This document shows, piece after piece, positions 7,333 to 27,349 of a stretch of 45,822 nt of DNA (position 1 is the stretch's first letter; the number at the start of each line of letters is the position of its first letter). This DNA is from Deltaproteobacteria bacterium (lineage in GTDB: Bacteria > Desulfobacterota > DSM-4660 > Desulfatiglandales > HGW-15): NCBI GenBank assembly GCA_016931115.1, contig JAFGFM010000061.1:1-45822 (forward strand). Direction: 5' to 3'. A program made the position numbers and the translations under genes. The notes under the pieces were generated by a model, which was given only the letters and a program-made list of their open reading frames with translations, was not told where the DNA came from and made no database searches.

Positions 7333-9174
7333 TCAGAATGCCTTGAGGCACCTGACATTATAGGTGAGTACGGGGTTATGTATGCCTTTGACCATTATCT
7401 CCCCAATTTTATCAGCCTCAACAATATCCTGTACGCTGCTGTATGTCCTCTGGCTGATGAGTATCTGACCTGCCTTTGCATTTGATTCCAGCCGGGAGGC
7501 CACATTTACCTGGTTTCCGATTACTGTATAGTCAAGCTGCATCTCTGAACCAATATTTCCTACGGTCATAAACCCGGTGTTTATCCCTATGCCCATGCCG
7601 AATTCATAACCGAAATACCTCCAGTCTTTTTTCAATTCCTCAGTCTTTTTCTGCATTTCAATGCCCATCATGACCGCCCTCTGGGCATGATCGGCCATGG
7701 GTACAGGATCACCTAAAAAGATCAACAGGCCATCGCCAATTATCTTGTTCAGTGTGCCGTCATACCGGTATACGATCTTTGTCATTTCTGAGATATAGTT
7801 CTGAAGCAGGCTGAACAGCTCTTCAGGCTCAAGGTTATCGGTAAATGTGGAGAAGTTTCTGATATCAGTAAACATGACTGTCATCATCTTTCTCCTTGGT
7901 GTTGCCCAGAGGGTATCACTGTTCGATAAAATCTTTTCTGCAACATTTGGTGAGAGATATCTCCTGAGGTTATTATATTTATTGAGTTCATCAATCTGTC
8001 TTTTTACCTTTTCCTCAAGTCCTTCATTGAGGACAAGCAACTCTTTTCTTGCCTTATCAAGCTCCTGAGTCCTTTCATCCACCTTCTGTTCAAGGGTAAT
8101 GCTGTAATCCTCAAGCCGCGCCTTTGCCTCCTTAAGCTCTTCATTTACTATCTTCAGTTTATCATAGGCCTTGTTTCTAGCCTTGATATTCAGCCGGAGG
8201 TTGTTGATTGTATCCACAAGATGGGTCTCAGAATCCTGACCCTGCCTGCCTGCCCTGAATATCTGTAAGTTTCGTCTTAGCCATGAAAACCTGCCATAGG
8301 TAACATCAAGGACAAAATATGGAGAAGCAAATATCTCACCTTTTTTCAATATGATTCGGTCATCACCCCTGACAGTCTCAGTAATAAGTATAGCGCAGGG
8401 GTTTTTACCGTTTAACCGGTTGATTTCAAGCTCTGTGTATCTGCCAAGAAAAACCTCTTTTTCATTAAGCCTCTCTGACAACAGGACAATCTTTTTTCCA
8501 ACGCTTTTTCTCACCCTGTCTATGGGATCTGTAACCCATAAATTGCCATCTTCCATACTTGCGTTAAGGTTAAAACCCCTGAATTCAGGCTCTTCATTCA
8601 GAAGGATAACAGGGTTATATGATTTTAATGGTTGTTTAATATCTGCGGCTGGCAGGTTCCAAACCGTTGGTATTGTGGAAATGATACCTCTTCTGTATGA
8701 ATCAACAATAAATTCACGGTTAACATCTATATCACTGTGATATGAAACTTTGAGCAAGACCCTCATTTTTTTAAGGGTTTTATCATAGTATGGCGGGAGG
8801 ATTACCTCAATATCCTTTGTATCGTTGATATTATAGTTGAAAAAGGGCACCCTTTTATAACCGTCATCAGGCCCGGCAAAGAACCTTACCATATAATCGA
8901 ATCTTCCCCATGATTTCAGCATGGCAGAAGAAGAACCACAGTTAAAATAAAAAAATGGTTCTTCCGAAAGATCCTTTGCCCTTCTCATTATCCTGTGGAA
9001 ATTGTCATAGGTTGTCCACTCATCTTCATTTAAAAAAAATGATTCAGGAGTGTCATACCTGTCTGCAGGAAAAGGCAGGTCATTAAAGAGTGAAGGGTGT
9101 CCCCCTGTCTTTTTTTGAAGGTAGGAGTAAACAATGCTTATATTTCTGTTACTTATACAATCTGTTCTGCTCAT
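7333..9174 (-). CDS. Class III adenylate cyclase with N-terminal sensory region
   Basis: A 613-residue soluble protein. The last 185 residues are a full class III cyclase domain: metal-binding aspartates in FTDIRNF and GDGLLIFLGD, substrate-choosing Lys (TLNKIIGDG) and Asp (QLDYTVIG), which favour ATP over GTP, and the transition-state Asn/Arg of NVASR. All catalytic residues are present. Before it is a predicted coiled coil (about residues 320-410). The first 300 residues have no recognised domain and no membrane helix. I place the start at 9174, not at the upstream ATG (9201), because GAGGGG sits just before it and the sigma-54 promoter predicts transcription beginning near 9199. It heads an operon with the MBL-fold gene. 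Confidence 0.9.
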   Translation of the reverse strand: MSRTDCISNRNISIVYSYLQKKTGGHPSLFNDLPFPADRYDTPESFFLNEDEWTTYDNFHRIMRRAKDLSEEPFFYFNCGSSSAMLKSWGRFDYMVRFFAGPDDGYKRVPFFNYNINDTKDIEVILPPYYDKTLKKMRVLLKVSYHSDIDVNREFIVDSYRRGIISTIPTVWNLPAADIKQPLKSYNPVILLNEEPEFRGFNLNASMEDGNLWVTDPIDRVRKSVGKKIVLLSERLNEKEVFLGRYTELEINRLNGKNPCAILITETVRGDDRIILKKGEIFASPYFVLDVTYGRFSWLRRNLQIFRAGRQGQDSETHLVDTINNLRLNIKARNKAYDKLKIVNEELKEAKARLEDYSITLEQKVDERTQELDKARKELLVLNEGLEEKVKRQIDELNKYNNLRRYLSPNVAEKILSNSDTLWATPRRKMMTVMFTDIRNFSTFTDNLEPEELFSLLQNYISEMTKIVYRYDGTLNKIIGDGLLIFLGDPVPMADHAQRAVMMGIEMQKKTEELKKDWRYFGYEFGMGIGINTGFMTVGNIGSEMQLDYTVIGNQVNVASRLESNAKAGQILISQRTYSSVQDIVEADKIGEIMVKGIHNPVLTYNVRCLKAF

Positions 9175-9209
9175 TTTCCCCTCTGAATTGTAAAAATACA
9201 TGATGATTT

Positions 9210-10130: not shown

Positions 10131-10376
10131 ATTTTATCGCCTCTGTAAGATAAATTGTATTTGGTAAGAATGATGCCTGTTTTACATCAAGCAGGGAAAA
10201 AAATACATAAAAACTTAATCGGGACACCTGATTTTCTTAATTCATAAAACTGCCCCATATATAAGTGTCAACTGATCAATAAAGGTTTGGTTATATGGTC
10301 ATCAGTTTGATCCCTTTCTTAACAACCAAAATTGACAAAAGCAGTTTATGTGGTTATGGTTTGCCAGGAAAAACAA

Positions 10377-11744
10377 ATGGAAAACATACAGGAAAACCAG
10401 ACCAGGATCATACTGGACAGTATAGCGGACGGCGTATTTACCGTTGATTCGGATTGGCGGATAACCTCTTTTAACCGGGCTGCTGAAAATATTACAGGCA
10501 TAGGTAAAAAGGATGCGCTTGGCCGCCATTGCTGGGAGGTATTCAGGGCCAGCATTTGTGAAAGCCATTGCGCTCTAAGGCATACAGTTCAAACAGGCGG
10601 CCCTGTGGTAAACCGCTCTATTTTTATCGTCAACTCAAATGGTGATCGTGTACCCATAAGCATTTCAACCGCTCTATTAAAAGACAACCGTGGGAAGGTG
10701 ATAGGCGGGGTTGAGACATTCAGAGACCTTAGCCTTGTGGAGGCACTTAAAAAGGAACTTGATAAGAGCCATTCATTCTATGACATAATCAGCAAAAACA
10801 AGGAGATGCAACGTCTTTTCGGCATCATGGAGCAGCTTGCTGACAGCGATTCAACGGTTCTGATTGAGGGTGAAAGCGGAACAGGCAAGGAGCTCTTTGC
10901 AAAGGCGATTCATTCCATGAGTTCAAGAAGAAAGAGGCCGGTTGTTACAATCAACTGTGGCGCCATCCCTGATAATCTGCTTGAATCAGAACTTTTCGGA
11001 TACAAGGCCGGGGCATTTACTGATGCAAAAAAGGACAAGGCAGGGCGCATTGCCCTTGCTGAGGGAGGGACCCTTTTTCTGGATGAAATAGGCGACATCT
11101 CCCCGGCTCTTCAGGTAAGGCTTTTAAGGGTTATACAGGACAAGACCTATGAACCCCTTGGGAGCACAAAGACTGAAAAGGCGGATGTCCGTTTTGTGGC
11201 TGCTACCAATAAAGAGCTTGAACGCCTTGTGAAGGAAAAGAGGTTCAGGGAAGACCTCTATTACAGGATAAATGTTGTCAGGCTTAAACTGCCTCCTTTA
11301 AGGGACAGAAAAGGTGATATCCCGCTTCTTGTCTCTCATTTTATAAAACGGTTTAACGAGTTAAAGGGTAAGCACATTTTGGGGCTAAAACCTGAAGTAA
11401 TATCTCTGTTAATGTCTCACCCGTTTCCAGGCAATATAAGGGAGCTTGAAAACATACTCGATTATGCCACAGTTGTCTGCAAAGATGAATATATCGGCAT
11501 TGAGCATCTGCCTGACTTCCTTGCAGGAACAGCAAGATCTTTGACTCCACCTGTAACCATTGTCAATACTGATATCAAAGATATGGAGCGAAACTATATA
11601 TACAGCGCCCTTAAAAAAAACAGCTGGAACAGAAAAACAACAGCAAATTCTCTGGGCATGCACCCTACAACCCTCTGGCGAAAAATTAAGCAGATGGGCA
11701 TTATCATGCCTGATCATGATGGAAGATCAAAAAACCTGGGGTAG
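10377..11744 (+). CDS. PAS-containing sigma-54 activator (enhancer-binding protein) of the ORP-like locus
   Basis: A 455-residue regulator with three parts. A PAS domain occupies residues 8-120 with Cys52, Cys61 and Cys65. An AAA+ sigma-54 interaction domain follows, with Walker A GESGTGKE at 165-172, sigma-54 loop GAFTDA at 212-217 and Walker [10 protein letters not shown] Fis-type helix-turn-helix ends the protein ([20 protein letters not shown]). The loop carries Asp where most activators have Gly (GAFTGA). I choose ATG 10377 because AGGA lies about 10 nt upstream; the longer TTG frame from 10332 adds unconserved residues. A sigma-54 promoter follows 136 bp downstream, ahead of NifX/Mrp genes, matching the arrangement of the Desulfovibrio ORP activator. 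Confidence 0.88.
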
Positions 11745-11749
11745 TGCTG

Positions 11750-11789
11750 CAAATATGCAATGCTGCAATGTTTCAGTGTTGCATATTTG
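11750..11789 (+). promoter_or_regulatory. 16-bp-arm inverted repeat, candidate enhancer (UAS) for the sigma-54 activator
   Basis: CAAATATGCAA and TTGCATATTTG are perfect 11-bp arms, extended to 16 bp by two G-T pairs and CTG/CAG, with an 8-nt loop. It starts 6 bp after the activator stop codon and about 90-130 bp upstream of the sigma-54 promoter, a normal enhancer distance. It lacks a T-tract, so a terminator role is less likely than an activator site, though both are possible. Confidence 0.6.
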
Positions 11790-11823
11790 AAATAATACTG
11801 AAAGGCTATATTTTCTGTTAATA

Positions 11824-11847
11824 CCTGGATTATCTAATTAATCCAGG
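11824..11847. promoter_or_regulatory. Perfect 9-bp inverted repeat between enhancer and promoter
   Basis: CCTGGATTA (11824-11832) and TAATCCAGG (11839-11847) with a 6-bp spacer, 33 bp upstream of the -24 element. It has no T-tract. It may be a second regulator site or a weak terminator of the activator gene. Confidence 0.4.
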
Positions 11848-11879
11848 ATGATGCATATATTTAAGAACAGGTGTCTTTG

Positions 11880-11895
11880 TGGCATGATAAATGCT
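11880..11895 (+). promoter_or_regulatory. Sigma-54 (-24/-12) promoter of the ORP-like operon
   Basis: TGGCATGATAAATGCT has GG and GC in exact -24/-12 register (10 bp between them) and matches TGGCAYR-N4-NTGCW. Predicted transcription starts near 11907 and reads through the DUF5320-like relic into the NifX/Mrp genes. Confidence 0.75.
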
Positions 11896-11914
11896 TTACC
11901 AATTATGGTGTTGA

Positions 11915-12121
11915 GTAATTTCCATTCAGGAAGAGGCATTATTAAAGTCTGAGGCAGAAATGGTTAAAAATGGCCTTGAGGCGATAGAAAAAAGGATTAA
12001 CAACCTGAAAAACAGAATAGGATTTAAAACAAAAGGCATGTTAGACGGCATACCCGTGCATGATACACTTAAGCCGTGGGTGGCGACCAGCTCTCCATGC
12101 CTGCTATTTAATGTGATATAG
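11915..12121 (+). pseudogene. Relic of a DUF5320-like small protein
   Basis: An open frame from 11915 (no start codon until ATG 11960) reads IQEEALLKSEAEMVKNGLEA and then IEKRINNLKNR before ending at a TAG at 12121. This charged helix closely resembles the C-terminal coiled coil of the DUF5320 proteins that usually accompany NifX/Mrp genes. The Gly/Met-rich N-terminal part (MP.GDRTGP-type) is missing; the sigma-54 promoter lies only about 20 bp upstream. I infer a deletion remnant. A 53-residue product from ATG 11960 is possible, but no ribosome site is evident. Identification is from memory of the family, not from a search. Confidence 0.45.
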
Positions 12122-12123
12122 TT

Positions 12124-12534
12124 ATGAGAATCGCCATACCAGTATGGGATGATAAGGTTTCACCGGTCTTTGATACAGCCCTGAAATTATTGGTGGTAAA
12201 TATCGATAATAACAGGGAGGAATCGAGGTTTTTTTATCCTATTGATGAAGAGGAGATTACCCAGAAATGTCACAGGATAAAAAAGCTTGAGCTTGACACC
12301 CTCATATGCGGTGCTGTATCACAGGCATTTCTCCAAATACTTCTTTCATCAGGTCTTGATGTTATACAGGAGATATCAGGCCCTGCTGAGGATGTACTCA
12401 AGGCGTATCTTGACGGGACCATATTTCAACCCCGTTTTTTAATGCCTGGATGCAGGAGATGGAAGCACAGGTGTTGTGGAAAAGGCAATATGGGCGCAGG
12501 GCTCAGGGGAAAAGGCATTGAAAGCAGGCATTGA
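12124..12534 (+). CDS. NifX/NifB-type dinitrogenase-cofactor-domain protein (ORP-like)
   Basis: A 136-residue protein beginning MRIAIPVWDDKVSPVFDTA, the classic opening of the Nitro_FeMo-Co (PF02579) domain, which spans about residues 1-108. The domain binds Fe-Mo or related metal-sulfur clusters in NifX and NifY and holds the Mo-Cu-S cluster in the orange protein. The C-terminal tail is Cys- and basic-rich (CRRWKHRCCGKG) and might add metal ligands. It is the first intact gene after the sigma-54 promoter. No Shine-Dalgarno is obvious before the ATG. Confidence 0.85.
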   Translation: MRIAIPVWDDKVSPVFDTALKLLVVNIDNNREESRFFYPIDEEEITQKCHRIKKLELDTLICGAVSQAFLQILLSSGLDVIQEISGPAEDVLKAYLDGTIFQPRFLMPGCRRWKHRCCGKGNMGAGLRGKGIESRH

Positions 12535-12589
12535 TGCAATTTTTAATTTAATGACCAGTTATTATGGATCTTGAAGATTCGAAATAAAG

Positions 12590-12609
12590 AAACAATTATG
12601 AAATTGTTT
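12590..12609 (+). other. Small hairpin between the NifX-like and Mrp genes
   Basis: A perfect 8-bp AT stem (AAACAATT / AATTGTTT) with a 4-nt loop, 18 nt upstream of the mrp-like start. It is too weak to be called a terminator and may be an RNA processing or stability element. Confidence 0.3.
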
Positions 12610-12626
12610 TAACCGACTTACTTAAT

Positions 12627-13499
12627 ATGGGGGTGTTTAAAAAGGAAATGTCAAACAATCAACAGAACCAGGGGCTTAAAAACTTTGATGCCCAGTCTCA
12701 ACAGGATATGGAGATAGGCAAACGTCTTAAAAGGATAAAAAACAAGATACTTGTGATGAGCGGTAAGGGGGGGGTAGGTAAAAGCAGCGTTGCAGCATAT
12801 CTTTCCATCAGCCTGGCAAAAAAGGGGTACAGGGTAGGGCTGATGGATGTGGATCTGCACGGCCCCAGCATCCCGAGAATGCTTGGAATAAATGCAAACA
12901 TAGCCGTATCGCCTGTTACAGGAAAGGCAATCCCTATTGAACCTATGCCAAATCTGCAGGTTATTTCAATAGAATCCATTATGGGTTCTGACAAGGATGC
13001 TGCAACCATATGGCGCGGGCCTATCAAAATAGGTGTTATCAGGCAGTTTGTTTCTGATATGGACTGGGCTGAACTGGATTACCTTGTTATAGACTCTCCT
13101 CCAGGCACAGGTGATGAGCCCCTTACAATTGCCCAGACAATAAAGGATGCAAAGGCGCTTATAGTAACTACACCACAGGAGGTATCCCTTGCAGATGTGC
13201 GGAAATCAATTAACTTCTGCAGGCAGGTAAATATGGAGATGCTCGGCGTGGTTGAAAATATGAATGGCCTAAAATGCCCCCATTGTGGTGAAATAATCAA
13301 CCTGTTCAAGTCAGACGGAGGGAAACATATGGCTGAAAAGGCCGGCATTAAACTTCTTGCAAGCCTGCCTATTGAACCCGAGGTTGTAAAACTTGCTGAT
13401 GCCGGAAGGCTTTTAGAGCTTTTTGATAAGGGCATTGTTTTCAGTGATGAATTCAGTAAAATGGTTGAACAGATCATAAGCAGTACAGAAAATGCTTAA
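12627..13499 (+). CDS. Mrp/NBP35-type Fe-S carrier ATPase
   Basis: A 290-residue P-loop ATPase of the Mrp/NBP35 family. It has a deviant Walker A (SGKGGVGKSS, residues 45-54), the switch motif DVDLHGPSIP, IDSPPGTGDEP, and the paired cysteines CPHC (217 and 220) that hold a bridging [4Fe-4S] cluster at the dimer interface. The family transfers Fe-S clusters or assists metal-cofactor assembly in the cytoplasm. In the ORP locus of Desulfovibrio an Mrp protein is a complex member. ATG 12648 is an alternative start giving MSNNQQ; neither start has a well-spaced ribosome site. Confidence 0.92.
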   Translation: MGVFKKEMSNNQQNQGLKNFDAQSQQDMEIGKRLKRIKNKILVMSGKGGVGKSSVAAYLSISLAKKGYRVGLMDVDLHGPSIPRMLGINANIAVSPVTGKAIPIEPMPNLQVISIESIMGSDKDAATIWRGPIKIGVIRQFVSDMDWAELDYLVIDSPPGTGDEPLTIAQTIKDAKALIVTTPQEVSLADVRKSINFCRQVNMEMLGVVENMNGLKCPHCGEIINLFKSDGGKHMAEKAGIKLLASLPIEPEVVKLADAGRLLELFDKGIVFSDEFSKMVEQIISSTENA

Positions 13500-13542
13500 C
13501 ATGTGTAAGTTTAACAGGTAAAAAAACTTTCAGGTAAAATTG

Positions 13543-13989
13543 ATGGATGAAGATGATTTACTAAAAATTATTAAAAATACAGATGACCCTATATATGCCG
13601 AATTGTTAAAAATTTACAGCCCTGAGGCTATAGAGAGGTGGATAGATCCTGACAATTTTGGGCCGATTGAAAATGCCGATGCTCATGCCTCGGTTAGTGG
13701 CAGGTGCGGTGACAGGATGGAGATATTCCTGAAAGTCAGTGGAGACAGGGTAATAAAATCATCATATATGACTGACGGGTGCGCATCAAGTAATATATGC
13801 GGCTCATTCGCAGCAGATATGGCCATGAATAAAGGCCCTGATGAAATTATTGAGATCACAGGAGAGGCTGTAATGGAAAGGGCTGGCGGTTTACCGGAAG
13901 AGGACAGGCACTGTGCATTTCTGGCTGCTGAGACCCTTCAGGCAGCGCTGGATGTATACATGAAAAAACAGAAGCAGTTGAAAGGATAA
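13543..13989 (+). CDS. IscU/NifU-N-like iron-sulfur scaffold protein
   Basis: A 148-residue protein with the three ligand cysteines of the IscU/NifU N-terminal fold in order: Cys55 (GRCGDRM), Cys80 (TDGCASS) and Cys124 preceded by His123 (RHCAFLAAETL). An extra Cys86 is present. The N-terminal 40 residues, with a repeated acidic stretch, are an extension. It would bind a transient cluster for handover, here presumably to the Mrp and MinD-type ATPases that flank it. The ATG at 13543 is preferred over the TTG at 13540. It ends 4 bp before the next gene, supporting one operon. Confidence 0.8.
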   Translation: MDEDDLLKIIKNTDDPIYAELLKIYSPEAIERWIDPDNFGPIENADAHASVSGRCGDRMEIFLKVSGDRVIKSSYMTDGCASSNICGSFAADMAMNKGPDEIIEITGEAVMERAGGLPEEDRHCAFLAAETLQAALDVYMKKQKQLKG

Positions 13990-13993
13990 TATT

Positions 13994-14851
13994 GTGATTA
14001 TAAGTATTGCAAGCGGAAAGGGTGGGACAGGCAAGACAACCGTAGCAACCAACCTGGCAATATCCCTTTCTCAAATGGATGTAACACTTCTGGACTGTGA
14101 CGTTGAAGAGCCCAATGCTCATCTCTTTTTAAGGCCTCAAATGGAATTAAAAGAGACTGTAACAACACCAGTACCTCAGATAGATGAGGGCAAATGCACC
14201 CTGTGCGGAAAGTGTAGTGAGATATGCCAGTTTAAGGCTATTGTGCGTATAGCAGATACCATGCTTACCTTTACTGACCTCTGCCACAGTTGCGGCGGAT
14301 GCATGGAGGTCTGCCCTTCAGGGGCCATTTCTGAAACAGGGAGAGAGCTTGGGGTTATTGAAAAGGGGGTTAAAAACGGACTGAAATTTATACATGGCAG
14401 ATTAAGGGTCGGAGAGGCCATGTCACCTCCCCTGATAAAAAAGGTGAGGAAGATGGCTGAAAGTAGCGGTCTCACAATAATTGATGCCCCTCCCGGTACA
14501 TCCTGCCCTGTGATATCAGCCATGAAAGATACAGATTTTGTAATTCTTGTGACAGAGCCCACACCCTTCGGGCTTAATGACCTGAAACTCGCGGCAGGCG
14601 CTGTGAAAATCCTTGGCATACCCTGTGGTTTAATAATCAACAGATCGGACATGGGCGATGATAAGGTAAAAGGGTTTGCAACAGATGAAGGGATACCAAT
14701 ACTTATGGAGATCCCGTTTGATAGAAAGATAGCTGAATCATATTCAAGGGGTGAACTTATTGTGGAGAGCATCCCTGAATATAGAAAAAAGTTTATCGAC
14801 CTTTACGATAATATCCAGAGTGTTGTTACTGCGGGGGAGGCTGACTTATGA
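13994..14851 (+). CDS. MinD-family ATPase with inserted 2[4Fe-4S] ferredoxin domain (first copy)
   Basis: A 285-residue protein combining a deviant Walker A ATPase (SGKGGTGKTT, residues 7-16) with an inserted ferredoxin. The two four-cysteine sets are Cys68/71/74/78 and Cys97/100/103/107. The ATPase resumes with IIDAPPGTSCP and VTEPTPFG. This architecture is that of the paired ATPases encoded in the ORP locus and near NifB-type genes. It is thought to couple ATP hydrolysis to cluster handling or positioning. Translation starts at GTG 13994. The last 4 bp overlap the start of the second copy (ATGA), indicating translational coupling. Confidence 0.9.
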   Translation: MIISIASGKGGTGKTTVATNLAISLSQMDVTLLDCDVEEPNAHLFLRPQMELKETVTTPVPQIDEGKCTLCGKCSEICQFKAIVRIADTMLTFTDLCHSCGGCMEVCPSGAISETGRELGVIEKGVKNGLKFIHGRLRVGEAMSPPLIKKVRKMAESSGLTIIDAPPGTSCPVISAMKDTDFVILVTEPTPFGLNDLKLAAGAVKILGIPCGLIINRSDMGDDKVKGFATDEGIPILMEIPFDRKIAESYSRGELIVESIPEYRKKFIDLYDNIQSVVTAGEADL

Positions 14852-25345: not shown

Positions 25346-26170
25346 TTAATATCTCCATGTGCATGCAGAATTGACCTTTATCCAGTAACCATAACCGGGC
25401 TTCAAAGATGTCAGGTCACTGAAATTCGGGTTCTCAGGGTCATAAACCTTCCACTTGCCATCCTGATATGTCCAGATGCTGATTACATTATTAAGGATTG
25501 AAGATATTGCCTGTGGCATATTCAGAATCGACGCTGAATTCAACCCTACAAGGTTCCATCCCTGTGAAAGGTGCACCCCATCTACTGGCACAGTCTCCGG
25601 GATATATAATTCAGCATTGCCACGCATATTCAACCAGAGACCCTGACCCGGTCTTACTTCAAGAAGGGTGCTGGTATTTGGGGTCTCAGGATTATAATGC
25701 TTCCATACACCATCAACATAAGCCCATATGGTTACCACATCATCCATGATTGGGCCAAGGGCATCTTCAATAGGGGTATTCTCAGCAACATTGGGTAAGG
25801 AGATGAGGTTCCAGTTGCTTGATGTTGAGATAAACATGCCGGGAAAAGAATTGACCTCATTTGAAAAGTCACTTTCAAGGCCGGCCTCATCAACAGCGGT
25901 TACCGCAAAATAGTATTTCTGCCCATCATCAGGTATATCAGTCGTATACTCATTAGTTAACCCGATATTGCCGCTGTTATCAGTATAATTGCCCGAGCTA
26001 TTTCCCCAGTAGACAATATAATGGCTCAGGTCGGGTTCGCTGTTGGCTTCCCATGTGAGGGTGATCTCACGGGCAGCAACAGATGTTACAAAAAAAACAA
26101 TAAAGAGGATTGAAAAAACCTGGATAAAACCTTTGACTAAAAAGCGAATTGCAGAATTATTATGTTCCAT
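25346..26170 (-). CDS. Exported fibronectin-III protein under c-di-GMP riboswitch control
   Basis: A 274-residue protein with a Sec signal peptide (hydrophobic core at about residues 9-32, cleavage near VAA) and one FN3 domain (about 34-108, from EITLTWEANSEPDLSHYIVY). Two copies of an about 75-residue module follow: a GWNL/NWNL start, an IWxYxxGxW centre and a GxGxW or GYGYWI end. No anchor is seen, so it is probably released or held by partners. The leader carries a sigma-54 promoter, a GEMM-I aptamer and an SD-hiding hairpin. This points to matrix, adhesion or surface behaviour switched by c-di-GMP. A paralogue lies directly upstream. Confidence 0.85.
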   Translation of the reverse strand: MEHNNSAIRFLVKGFIQVFSILFIVFFVTSVAAREITLTWEANSEPDLSHYIVYWGNSSGNYTDNSGNIGLTNEYTTDIPDDGQKYYFAVTAVDEAGLESDFSNEVNSFPGMFISTSSNWNLISLPNVAENTPIEDALGPIMDDVVTIWAYVDGVWKHYNPETPNTSTLLEVRPGQGLWLNMRGNAELYIPETVPVDGVHLSQGWNLVGLNSASILNMPQAISSILNNVISIWTYQDGKWKVYDPENPNFSDLTSLKPGYGYWIKVNSACTWRY

Positions 26171-26171
26171 A

Positions 26172-26233
26172 TTGGCACCTCCCAGTGTCTGTGCTTATCA
26201 GCCTTTGGCCGAATCAGCACTCAGTGGTGCCAA
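26172..26233 (-). promoter_or_regulatory. SD-sequestering expression platform of the riboswitch
   Basis: In the RNA, TTGGCACC (26233-26226) pairs perfectly with GGTGCCAA (26179-26172), which overlaps the end of the GGGAGG ribosome site and stops just before the ATG. A nested stem (GTGCT/AGCAC and GGCC/GGC) fills the loop. The first arm begins 3 nt after the aptamer, so ligand binding can compete with it. This suggests translational control. Confidence 0.75.
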
Positions 26234-26236
26234 CCC

Positions 26237-26330
26237 GCCCGGCAACCTCGCAACCATGTCCCCCATTTTGTTTCAAGGGGATTTAGGCCGACGGCTTTGC
26301 GTCCCGCCCTTTCGGACGGTTTGCTCTTAT
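26237..26330 (-). ncRNA. c-di-GMP-I (GEMM) riboswitch aptamer
   Basis: The minus-strand RNA contains the GEMM-I signature in order: GAGCAAACC, a GAAA-tetraloop stem (CCGTCC-GAAA-GGGCGG), GACGCAAAGCC, GTCGGCCTAAA, a stem CCCC...GGGG that would carry the tetraloop receptor, and GGTTGCGAGGTTGCC. The class binds cyclic di-GMP. It starts only about 12-15 nt after the predicted sigma-54 transcription start and ends about 65 nt before the FN3 gene. Confidence 0.93.
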
Positions 26331-26352
26331 CAAGCGACTCAATCTCTATATA

Positions 26353-26368
26353 AGCAATTCATATGCCA
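26353..26368 (-). promoter_or_regulatory. Sigma-54 (-24/-12) promoter driving the riboswitch and FN3 gene
   Basis: On the minus strand: TGGCATATGAATTGCT, with GG and GC exactly 10 bp apart and a full TTGCT -12 box. Predicted start is near 26342, just ahead of the aptamer. The remaining stretch to 26533 is AT-rich. It holds direct ATGCAAT/TGCAG motifs at about 26382-26403 that could be activator contacts. Confidence 0.8.
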
Positions 26369-26533: not shown

Positions 26534-27349
26534 TCAGTGTGTCCATACACAGGCATTTTTGACATTTATCCAATAACCAGGTCCCGGATCCATTTTCTGA
26601 AGGTCGCTTAAATAGGGATTCAGTGGATCATAAACCAGCCATCTACCCTCCTGATAGGTCCATATGCTTATTATATTTCCATGAATTTTAGAAATGGCAT
26701 CATGGATATCCTGGGATTCAGGCAAAGCAAATCTGACAAGGTTCCACCCCTTTGCGAGATAAATACTATTAAATGTTTTGGGCATAAAGGCTATGGTTTC
26801 ACTATTTCGCATATTTAACCAGAGCCCTTGCCATGGTTTTATTACTGTAAAGGTCCCATAGCCTGGATAAGATGGGTATGCCCGCAATGTTCCGTTTTCA
26901 TATGACCATATATTGATTATACTGCTCATAATCGGACCAAAGGCTTCTACCACAGAGATGTTTTCCGATATATCTGGAATAGAAATGAGGTTCCAGCCAC
27001 TCTTTAAAGAAAATACAACGGAGCCTGTATTCACCTCATTTGAAAAATCACTTTCAAGACCTGATGTATCAACCGCGGTAACTGCAAAAAAATATATCTG
27101 ATCATCATCGGGGATTCTGGCTATATATTCAATTACCAGGCCGATATTCCCGCTGTTATAAGTATACACTCCCGGTTCTACACCCCAGTAAACTATATAA
27201 TGGCTGAGGTCTGGTTCACTGTTTGCTTCCCATGTAAGGGTAACTTCACGGTCGATTGCGTAAACTTTAAAAGAGAATAAAATCAACAAAAAGAAAAAGG
27301 CGAATGTTAAAAAAGTACTAAAGAGGCGATCAGATTTTTTCAAATACAT
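26534..27349 (-). CDS. Exported fibronectin-III protein, paralogue without riboswitch
   Basis: A 271-residue paralogue with the same order of parts: signal peptide (core at about residues 10-30, cleavage near VYA), FN3 domain (EVTLTWEANSEPDLSHYIVY) and two GWNL...IWxY...GYWI modules. The FN3 parts are nearly identical, while the modules have diverged (for example, the tail NACVWTH against SACTWRY). No GEMM aptamer or sigma-54 site is found upstream, so the pair arose by tandem duplication but is regulated differently. The ATG has only a weak ribosome site and overlaps the end of a possible 54-residue ORF. Confidence 0.8.
   Translation of the reverse strand: MYLKKSDRLFSTFLTFAFFFLLILFSFKVYAIDREVTLTWEANSEPDLSHYIVYWGVEPGVYTYNSGNIGLVIEYIARIPDDDQIYFFAVTAVDTSGLESDFSNEVNTGSVVFSLKSGWNLISIPDISENISVVEAFGPIMSSIINIWSYENGTLRAYPSYPGYGTFTVIKPWQGLWLNMRNSETIAFMPKTFNSIYLAKGWNLVRFALPESQDIHDAISKIHGNIISIWTYQEGRWLVYDPLNPYLSDLQKMDPGPGYWINVKNACVWTH

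Follow-up and report, generated by a model that had tools for sequence, protein, structure and literature searches.

The question raised by this locus is whether one compact leader can place a single gene under the control of both a sigma-54 activator and a cyclic dinucleotide, and, if so, which dinucleotide is read and with what effect on translation. A first-pass annotation of the window (the whole stretch of DNA analysed, 45,822 nucleotides) had proposed that a sigma-54 promoter, a cyclic di-GMP riboswitch of the GEMM-I class and an SD-hiding hairpin lie together in front of a surface-protein gene. All three parts are indeed present, and all are on the minus strand, as set out below.

26534-27349 (-): upstream paralog of the controlled gene, 271 aa
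26470-26483 (-): candidate upstream activator site, tentative, ATGTCTTATTTTGT, about 100 bp above the promoter
26368-26353 (-): predicted sigma-54 (-24/-12) promoter, TGGCATATGAATTGCT, GG-N10-GC, PWM score 16.8 bits
26342 (-): predicted transcript start (+1)
26335-26238 (-): GEMM-I (c-di-GMP-I, RF01051) aptamer, cmscan 74.4 bits, E 6.8e-13
26331-26337 (-): 5' strand of P1, UCGCUUG, pairing with 26241-26235 and beginning 5 nt past the predicted +1
26325 (-): ligand-selectivity base A (model position 11, the equivalent of G20 of Vc2), read off the alignment
26241-26235 (-): 3' strand of P1, CGGGCGG, shared with alternative hairpin A as its base
26233-26226 (-): anti-SD arm, TTGGCACC (RNA UUGGCACC), perfect complement of 26179-26172
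26207-26220 (-): anti-anti-SD segment, GUGCUGAUUCGGCC, the 3' side of hairpin A, pairing with 26240-26227
26172-26183 (-): ribosome site, GGGAGGUGCCAA, containing the SD arm
26179-26172 (-): SD arm, GGTGCCAA (RNA GGUGCCAA), partner of the anti-SD arm
25346-26170 (-): controlled gene, 274-aa protein, start codon at 26170

When C26354 is placed at -12 the predicted +1 falls at 26342, the position that the earlier reader had given, 7 nt ahead of the aptamer and 5 nt ahead of the main P1 5' strand, and thus the predicted transcript takes in the entire aptamer. The covariance-model search that had been proposed as a check identified GEMM-I across the full model (positions 1-87 of 87) with a score more than twice the gathering score of 35. 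The SD arm overlaps the end of the ribosome site (GGGAGGTG; RNA GGGAGGUG), and its perfect pairing with the anti-SD arm is as first described, although that arm lies about 4 nt past the covariance-model end and not 3 nt after the aptamer. The view that promoter, aptamer and SD hairpin constitute one leader is supported. The covariance-model end and the start codon are 67 nt apart, and the gene, which is on the same strand, is preceded by a covarying SD helix.

The product of the controlled gene looks like a secreted FN3 protein, in keeping with the surface protein originally proposed. Its N terminus is hydrophobic, and the protein includes a single FN3 domain (PF00041, 27.7 bits; cut-off 25) and two tandem 'GWNLISLP...WxYxxGxWKxYxPE...GxGYWIKV' repeats, which were seen by eye in the translation. 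The gene and its paralog, followed by a selA-like gene, also occur in a genome of the same genus, where the syntenic leader is L037; no Rfam aptamer was found before the paralog in the window.

The first-pass annotation had regarded the direct join of an rpoN promoter to a GEMM switch as unusual; a wider survey shows that it is not a one-off. A sigma-54 PWM was run over the 110 nt that precede each of 49 GEMM-type leaders from 61 genomes of the same order; 11 of the 49 exceeded 10 bits, while the other 38 scored no more than 6.4 bits; as controls, shifted spacers gave 0-2 leaders, the reverse strand none and shuffles 0.5%. A scan of the genomes of 84,980 species for TGGCAY-N6-TGC followed, after 20-50 nt, by a strict GEMM core returned 81 loci, an absolute count under this strict pattern that comprises, as judged from record titles, 45 in Deltaproteobacteria/Desulfobacterota, 29 in Nitrosomonas or other ammonia-oxidising Betaproteobacteria and seven elsewhere. 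A search of 395 genomes of the phylum that left the spacing free between 1 and 13 gave 11 matches, of which 10 displayed the exact sigma-54 spacing. The unconstrained base after the GC was A or T in 75 of the 80 loci from the species-wide scan that were analysed. These sequence comparisons indicate that the coupling of sigma-54 to GEMM is genuine and recurrent. As the same layout is found in dozens of Desulfobacterota and in ammonia oxidisers, it looks like a recurring two-signal switch. In the Desulfobacterota the products of some 35 downstream genes have a signal-like N terminus and a first domain resembling 'VTLAWDANTEPDLAGYKIYY', the FN3 type found in the window. The Nitrosomonas genes encode other proteins with signal-like N termini, which form two sequence groups, one of which has a weak match to a polysaccharide lyase. 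The genome from which the window derives contains a sister leader, L001 (G000:C14, 783-872, minus strand), which has a sigma-54 site and an SD helix of its own, carries G at the selectivity position and precedes an FN3-PKD protein.

While the two-signal layout that had been proposed holds, the assignment of c-di-GMP as the second signal does not stand as made. The base equivalent to G20 of Vc2, immediately before the conserved GC of the core, is A (A26325), which is the signature of GEMM-Ib, the cGAMP-responsive class; the equivalence of positions 11 and 20 in the two numberings is given in PMC9262584. G is found at this base in L037, the syntenic ortholog, in the sister leader L001 and in 78 of the 80 sigma-54-linked leaders from elsewhere; among the FN3-type leaders only the window copy has A. 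The two other sigma-54-linked leaders with A are L139 (4514-4590, plus strand) and L161 (581-646, plus strand), from an uncultured bacterium and a Nitrosomonas MAG, respectively. It could be argued, therefore, that the window copy is a cGAMP riboswitch newly re-tuned from a c-di-GMP ancestor by one G-to-A change, a proposal that gains weight from the finding that A20G alone switches a Geobacter GEMM-Ib aptamer from cGAMP to c-di-GMP selectivity (PMC6456294). Against this, a search of the GGDEF and SMODS families in the draft genome (98.5% complete) revealed no cGAMP synthase. Nine intact GGDEF domains all have GHxxGD, with none displaying the Hypr signature (GHxxGS, with Ser at the PleD D344 position), the tenth is degenerate, and no DncV-like SMODS nucleotidyltransferase was matched. 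Furthermore, position 20 is a selectivity factor and not a hard filter (PMC9262584). The re-tuning is thus a serious possibility, but one to which we would give appreciably less than an even chance. Given an A at this base, a G in the ortholog and the lack of a cGAMP synthase among the families searched, the ligand is uncertain: it may be c-di-GMP, as in the relatives with G20, with A20 lowering selectivity, or 3',3'-cGAMP. It should be emphasized that the identity of the ligand is independent of the sign of control.

The SD-hiding helix, here termed helix B, consists in the window of 8 perfect base pairs, and the 79-nt segment downstream of the aptamer folds with it better than any of 200 shuffles (z = -5.1). 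Its conservation was assessed on an unguided MAFFT alignment of 24 FN3-type leaders, in which 35 cells had changed on both sides, compared with 14.6 after shuffling (0 of 500 shuffles as good), and 77.9% of cells were paired, compared with 39-49% when one strand was slid by 1-3 columns. Exchanging partners between leaders weakened the helix from -20.2 to -13.0 kcal/mol, no permutation out of 20,000 did as well as the true partners, and the composition control was passed by 22 of 26 leaders. The helix is built from differing sequences in different leaders, such as AGCACUUCCAA/UUGGAGGUGCU in L001, AGUACCUCC/GGAGGUACU in L100 and CAUCCUCC/GGAGGAUG in L108. The Nitrosomonas leaders have an SD hairpin of their own, in which GUUCCgUCCUU pairs with AAGGAGGAA.

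The anti-SD arm has a second potential partner. In hairpin A the P1 3' strand and the anti-SD arm pair with the next segment downstream, and in the window the transcript is predicted to adopt this fold until the SD emerges (-22.1 kcal/mol). None of 20,000 partner permutations was as good as the real hairpin A, 72% of its cells were paired (33-41% when slid), and when P1 was blocked its base paired downstream with a probability above 0.5 in 19 of 26 leaders. In an unguided diagonal scan of the alignment hairpin A and helix B, which share the anti-SD arm, ranked first and second. Covariation of hairpin A above shuffles was not detected in the leader alignment, the composition control was passed by 11 of 26 leaders, and in the window the arm gave a p of 0.09, which is not significant. 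Hairpin A is likely to be a real alternative structure, with moderate support. The pairing of P1 itself is barely leader-specific (905 of 20,000 permutations were as good).

These elements suggest how the leader might operate. An active sigma-54 activator would fire the enhancer-dependent promoter, and the RNA would start at the outer edge of P1 of the GEMM-I aptamer. Past the aptamer, a single RNA arm would have the choice of two partners. While P1 is open, its 3' strand and the anti-SD arm would together fold with the downstream segment as hairpin A, leaving the ribosome site free (ON), whereas a cyclic dinucleotide that locked P1 would deprive hairpin A of its base, and the anti-SD arm would then take the ribosome site in helix B (OFF). 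In most leaders P1 ends ahead of the anti-SD arm, such that P1 and helix B are compatible, while hairpin A competes with both; the ligand is therefore predicted to close the SD. We consider this account, in which the activator drives the RNA and the ligand shuts it, to be reasonably probable, and the leader is most likely of an AND type, its OFF direction, on which the first-pass annotation was silent, being suggested by the anatomy. Equilibrium folding gave a closed SD irrespective of whether P1 was allowed (mean unpaired 0.15 and 0.14), so the OFF sign is one that we infer, and an ON state would need kinetic trapping or the help of a protein.

The opposite sign, in which the ligand opens the ribosome site because the bound aptamer and an extension of P1 keep the anti-SD arm off the SD, is consistent with the closure of the SD in the equilibrium models without ligand. 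In the window and in L037 such an extension is able to base-pair with the beginning of the anti-SD arm (UUGG in the window), and the related Geobacter cGAMP riboswitches are ON switches, which act by antitermination (PMC6456294). In most other leaders, however, P1 stops before the anti-SD arm, and hairpin A competes with P1 as well as with helix B, making an ON switch, in our judgement, unlikely, if still to be reckoned with. It might also be proposed that A at position 20 is a weakening change and the leader a degrading copy, given that the leader in the window is the only one of the FN3 type to depart from the G that prevails among the sigma-54-linked leaders. However, the promoter and helix B are intact, as is the remainder of the aptamer, and helix B of the window ranks with the strongest observed (-28.4 kcal/mol), arguing that decay is rather improbable.

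The promoter itself has GG at -24, GC at -12, 10-nt spacing and consensus flanks. TGGCATATGAATTGCT is the second-best sigma-54 match in the whole window on either strand, shuffled windows contained no site of at least 16.7 bits, the ortholog L037 keeps the element, as TGGCACATAAAATGCT, and the genome has one copy of rpoN (PF04552, 217 bits). Its use as a promoter is thus a prediction from these features. The distance from the element to the aptamer spans 10-38 nt (the pattern allowed 8-38), which places the element outside the RNA fold, and with the smallest gap found in the 80 loci, 10 nt, model position 1 falls at +1, so that any shorter gap would leave it out of the transcript. The suggestion that GG-N10-GC is instead a 5' extension conserved as part of the RNA, or that it resembles a promoter by chance, is very improbable in view of this variable gap, the fit of the spacing and of the A/T after GC to sigma-54, the failure of decoy spacings and the conservation in L037.

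The activator may bind upstream, as the window leader, its ortholog L037 and two sister leaders, L001 and L038, all have words similar to ATGTCTTATTTTGT at roughly corresponding positions; alternatively, the similarity reflects the common descent of these leaders and not an activator site. The pattern ATGTCTNNTTTTGT occurs five times in the genome, compared with two occurrences of the reversed pattern. Two of the five are sigma-54/GEMM leaders, and no wider regulon was traced through these matches, one of the other three having been examined and found to be the start of an unrelated ORF.

Compared with established GEMM-I riboswitches (RF01051; Vc2 of Vibrio cholerae, Cd1 of C. difficile), the aptamer of the window shares a score far above the gathering threshold, the conserved P2/P3 core and a place in the 5' leader of a surface-protein gene, but differs in its A selectivity base, its sigma-54 promoter and a translational anti-SD platform in place of a terminator. 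With the GEMM-Ib riboswitches of Geobacter (pgcA/GSU1761, Gmet_0970) it shares the A at the G20 equivalent. Those elements, however, use antitermination and belong to a genome that encodes a Hypr GGDEF (PMC6456294), whereas the window leader has an SD hairpin as its platform, lies in a genome in which no Hypr enzyme was found and precedes a gene for an FN3 protein. The RpoN-dependent PEP-CTERM and exopolysaccharide genes associated with PrsK-PrsR in environmental bacteria (PMC9850573, PMC1569441) resemble the window gene in that sigma-54 promoters appear to serve genes for secreted surface proteins. The window gene, in contrast, has no PEP-CTERM match. PrsR is not supported as the activator, the best match in the genome scoring 438 bits, below the TIGR02915 cut-off of 502.6.

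Enhancer-binding proteins of the FleQ type couple a sigma-54-family activator to c-di-GMP, the protein sensing the dinucleotide at transcription, whereas the RNA of the window would sense it after initiation. The parts and the principle are therefore known, while the recurrent fusion of sigma-54 with a GEMM/c-di-GMP riboswitch is without a description that we could find in the open-access literature. The broadest formulation, which we offer tentatively and hold to be somewhat doubtful as a whole, is of a widespread composite element (sigma-54, GEMM-I and a covarying SD hairpin) that serves FN3 surface proteins in Desulfobacterota and, through an SD hairpin of different construction, a further set of secreted proteins in Nitrosomonas; a cyclic dinucleotide would gate translation only on activator-made RNAs, and one base would have re-tuned the element towards cGAMP in the species of the window. 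The data suggest that two global circuits, sigma-54 activators and cyclic dinucleotides, have repeatedly been wired in cis on single genes in distant bacteria. The layout is a compact RNA that is open to testing, it has a defined set of targets, the FN3 surface proteins, in bacteria whose regulation is little known, and the window leader and L037 provide a natural pair of orthologs that differ at the ligand-selectivity base.

Several further arrangements were observed. In one genome of the order a sigma-54 site and a GGC-type GEMM precede a gene for a sigma-54 enhancer-binding protein (L082; G041:C370, 579-1643, plus strand), possibly a riboswitch-controlled activator, while L006 (G000:C172, 1501-2455, minus strand) has two cobalamin riboswitches and a GEMM aptamer in series on one strand, before a gene for a probably secreted protein. 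The best sigma-54-like site of the window, TGGCATGTTAGTTGCA (9225-9210, minus strand, 18.3 bits), directly precedes an ORF of 622 aa (7333-9201). The C terminus of this ORF resembles that of a class III nucleotide cyclase, and the true start is probably the downstream ATG preceded by AGAGGGG. The region 10332-14851 (plus strand) contains a PAS-type sigma-54 activator of 470 aa, then a sigma-54-like site (11880-11895, 15.5 bits) and a set of genes similar to an ORP-type operon, with an MrpORP NCBIfam score of 368 bits, under the cut-off of 450.
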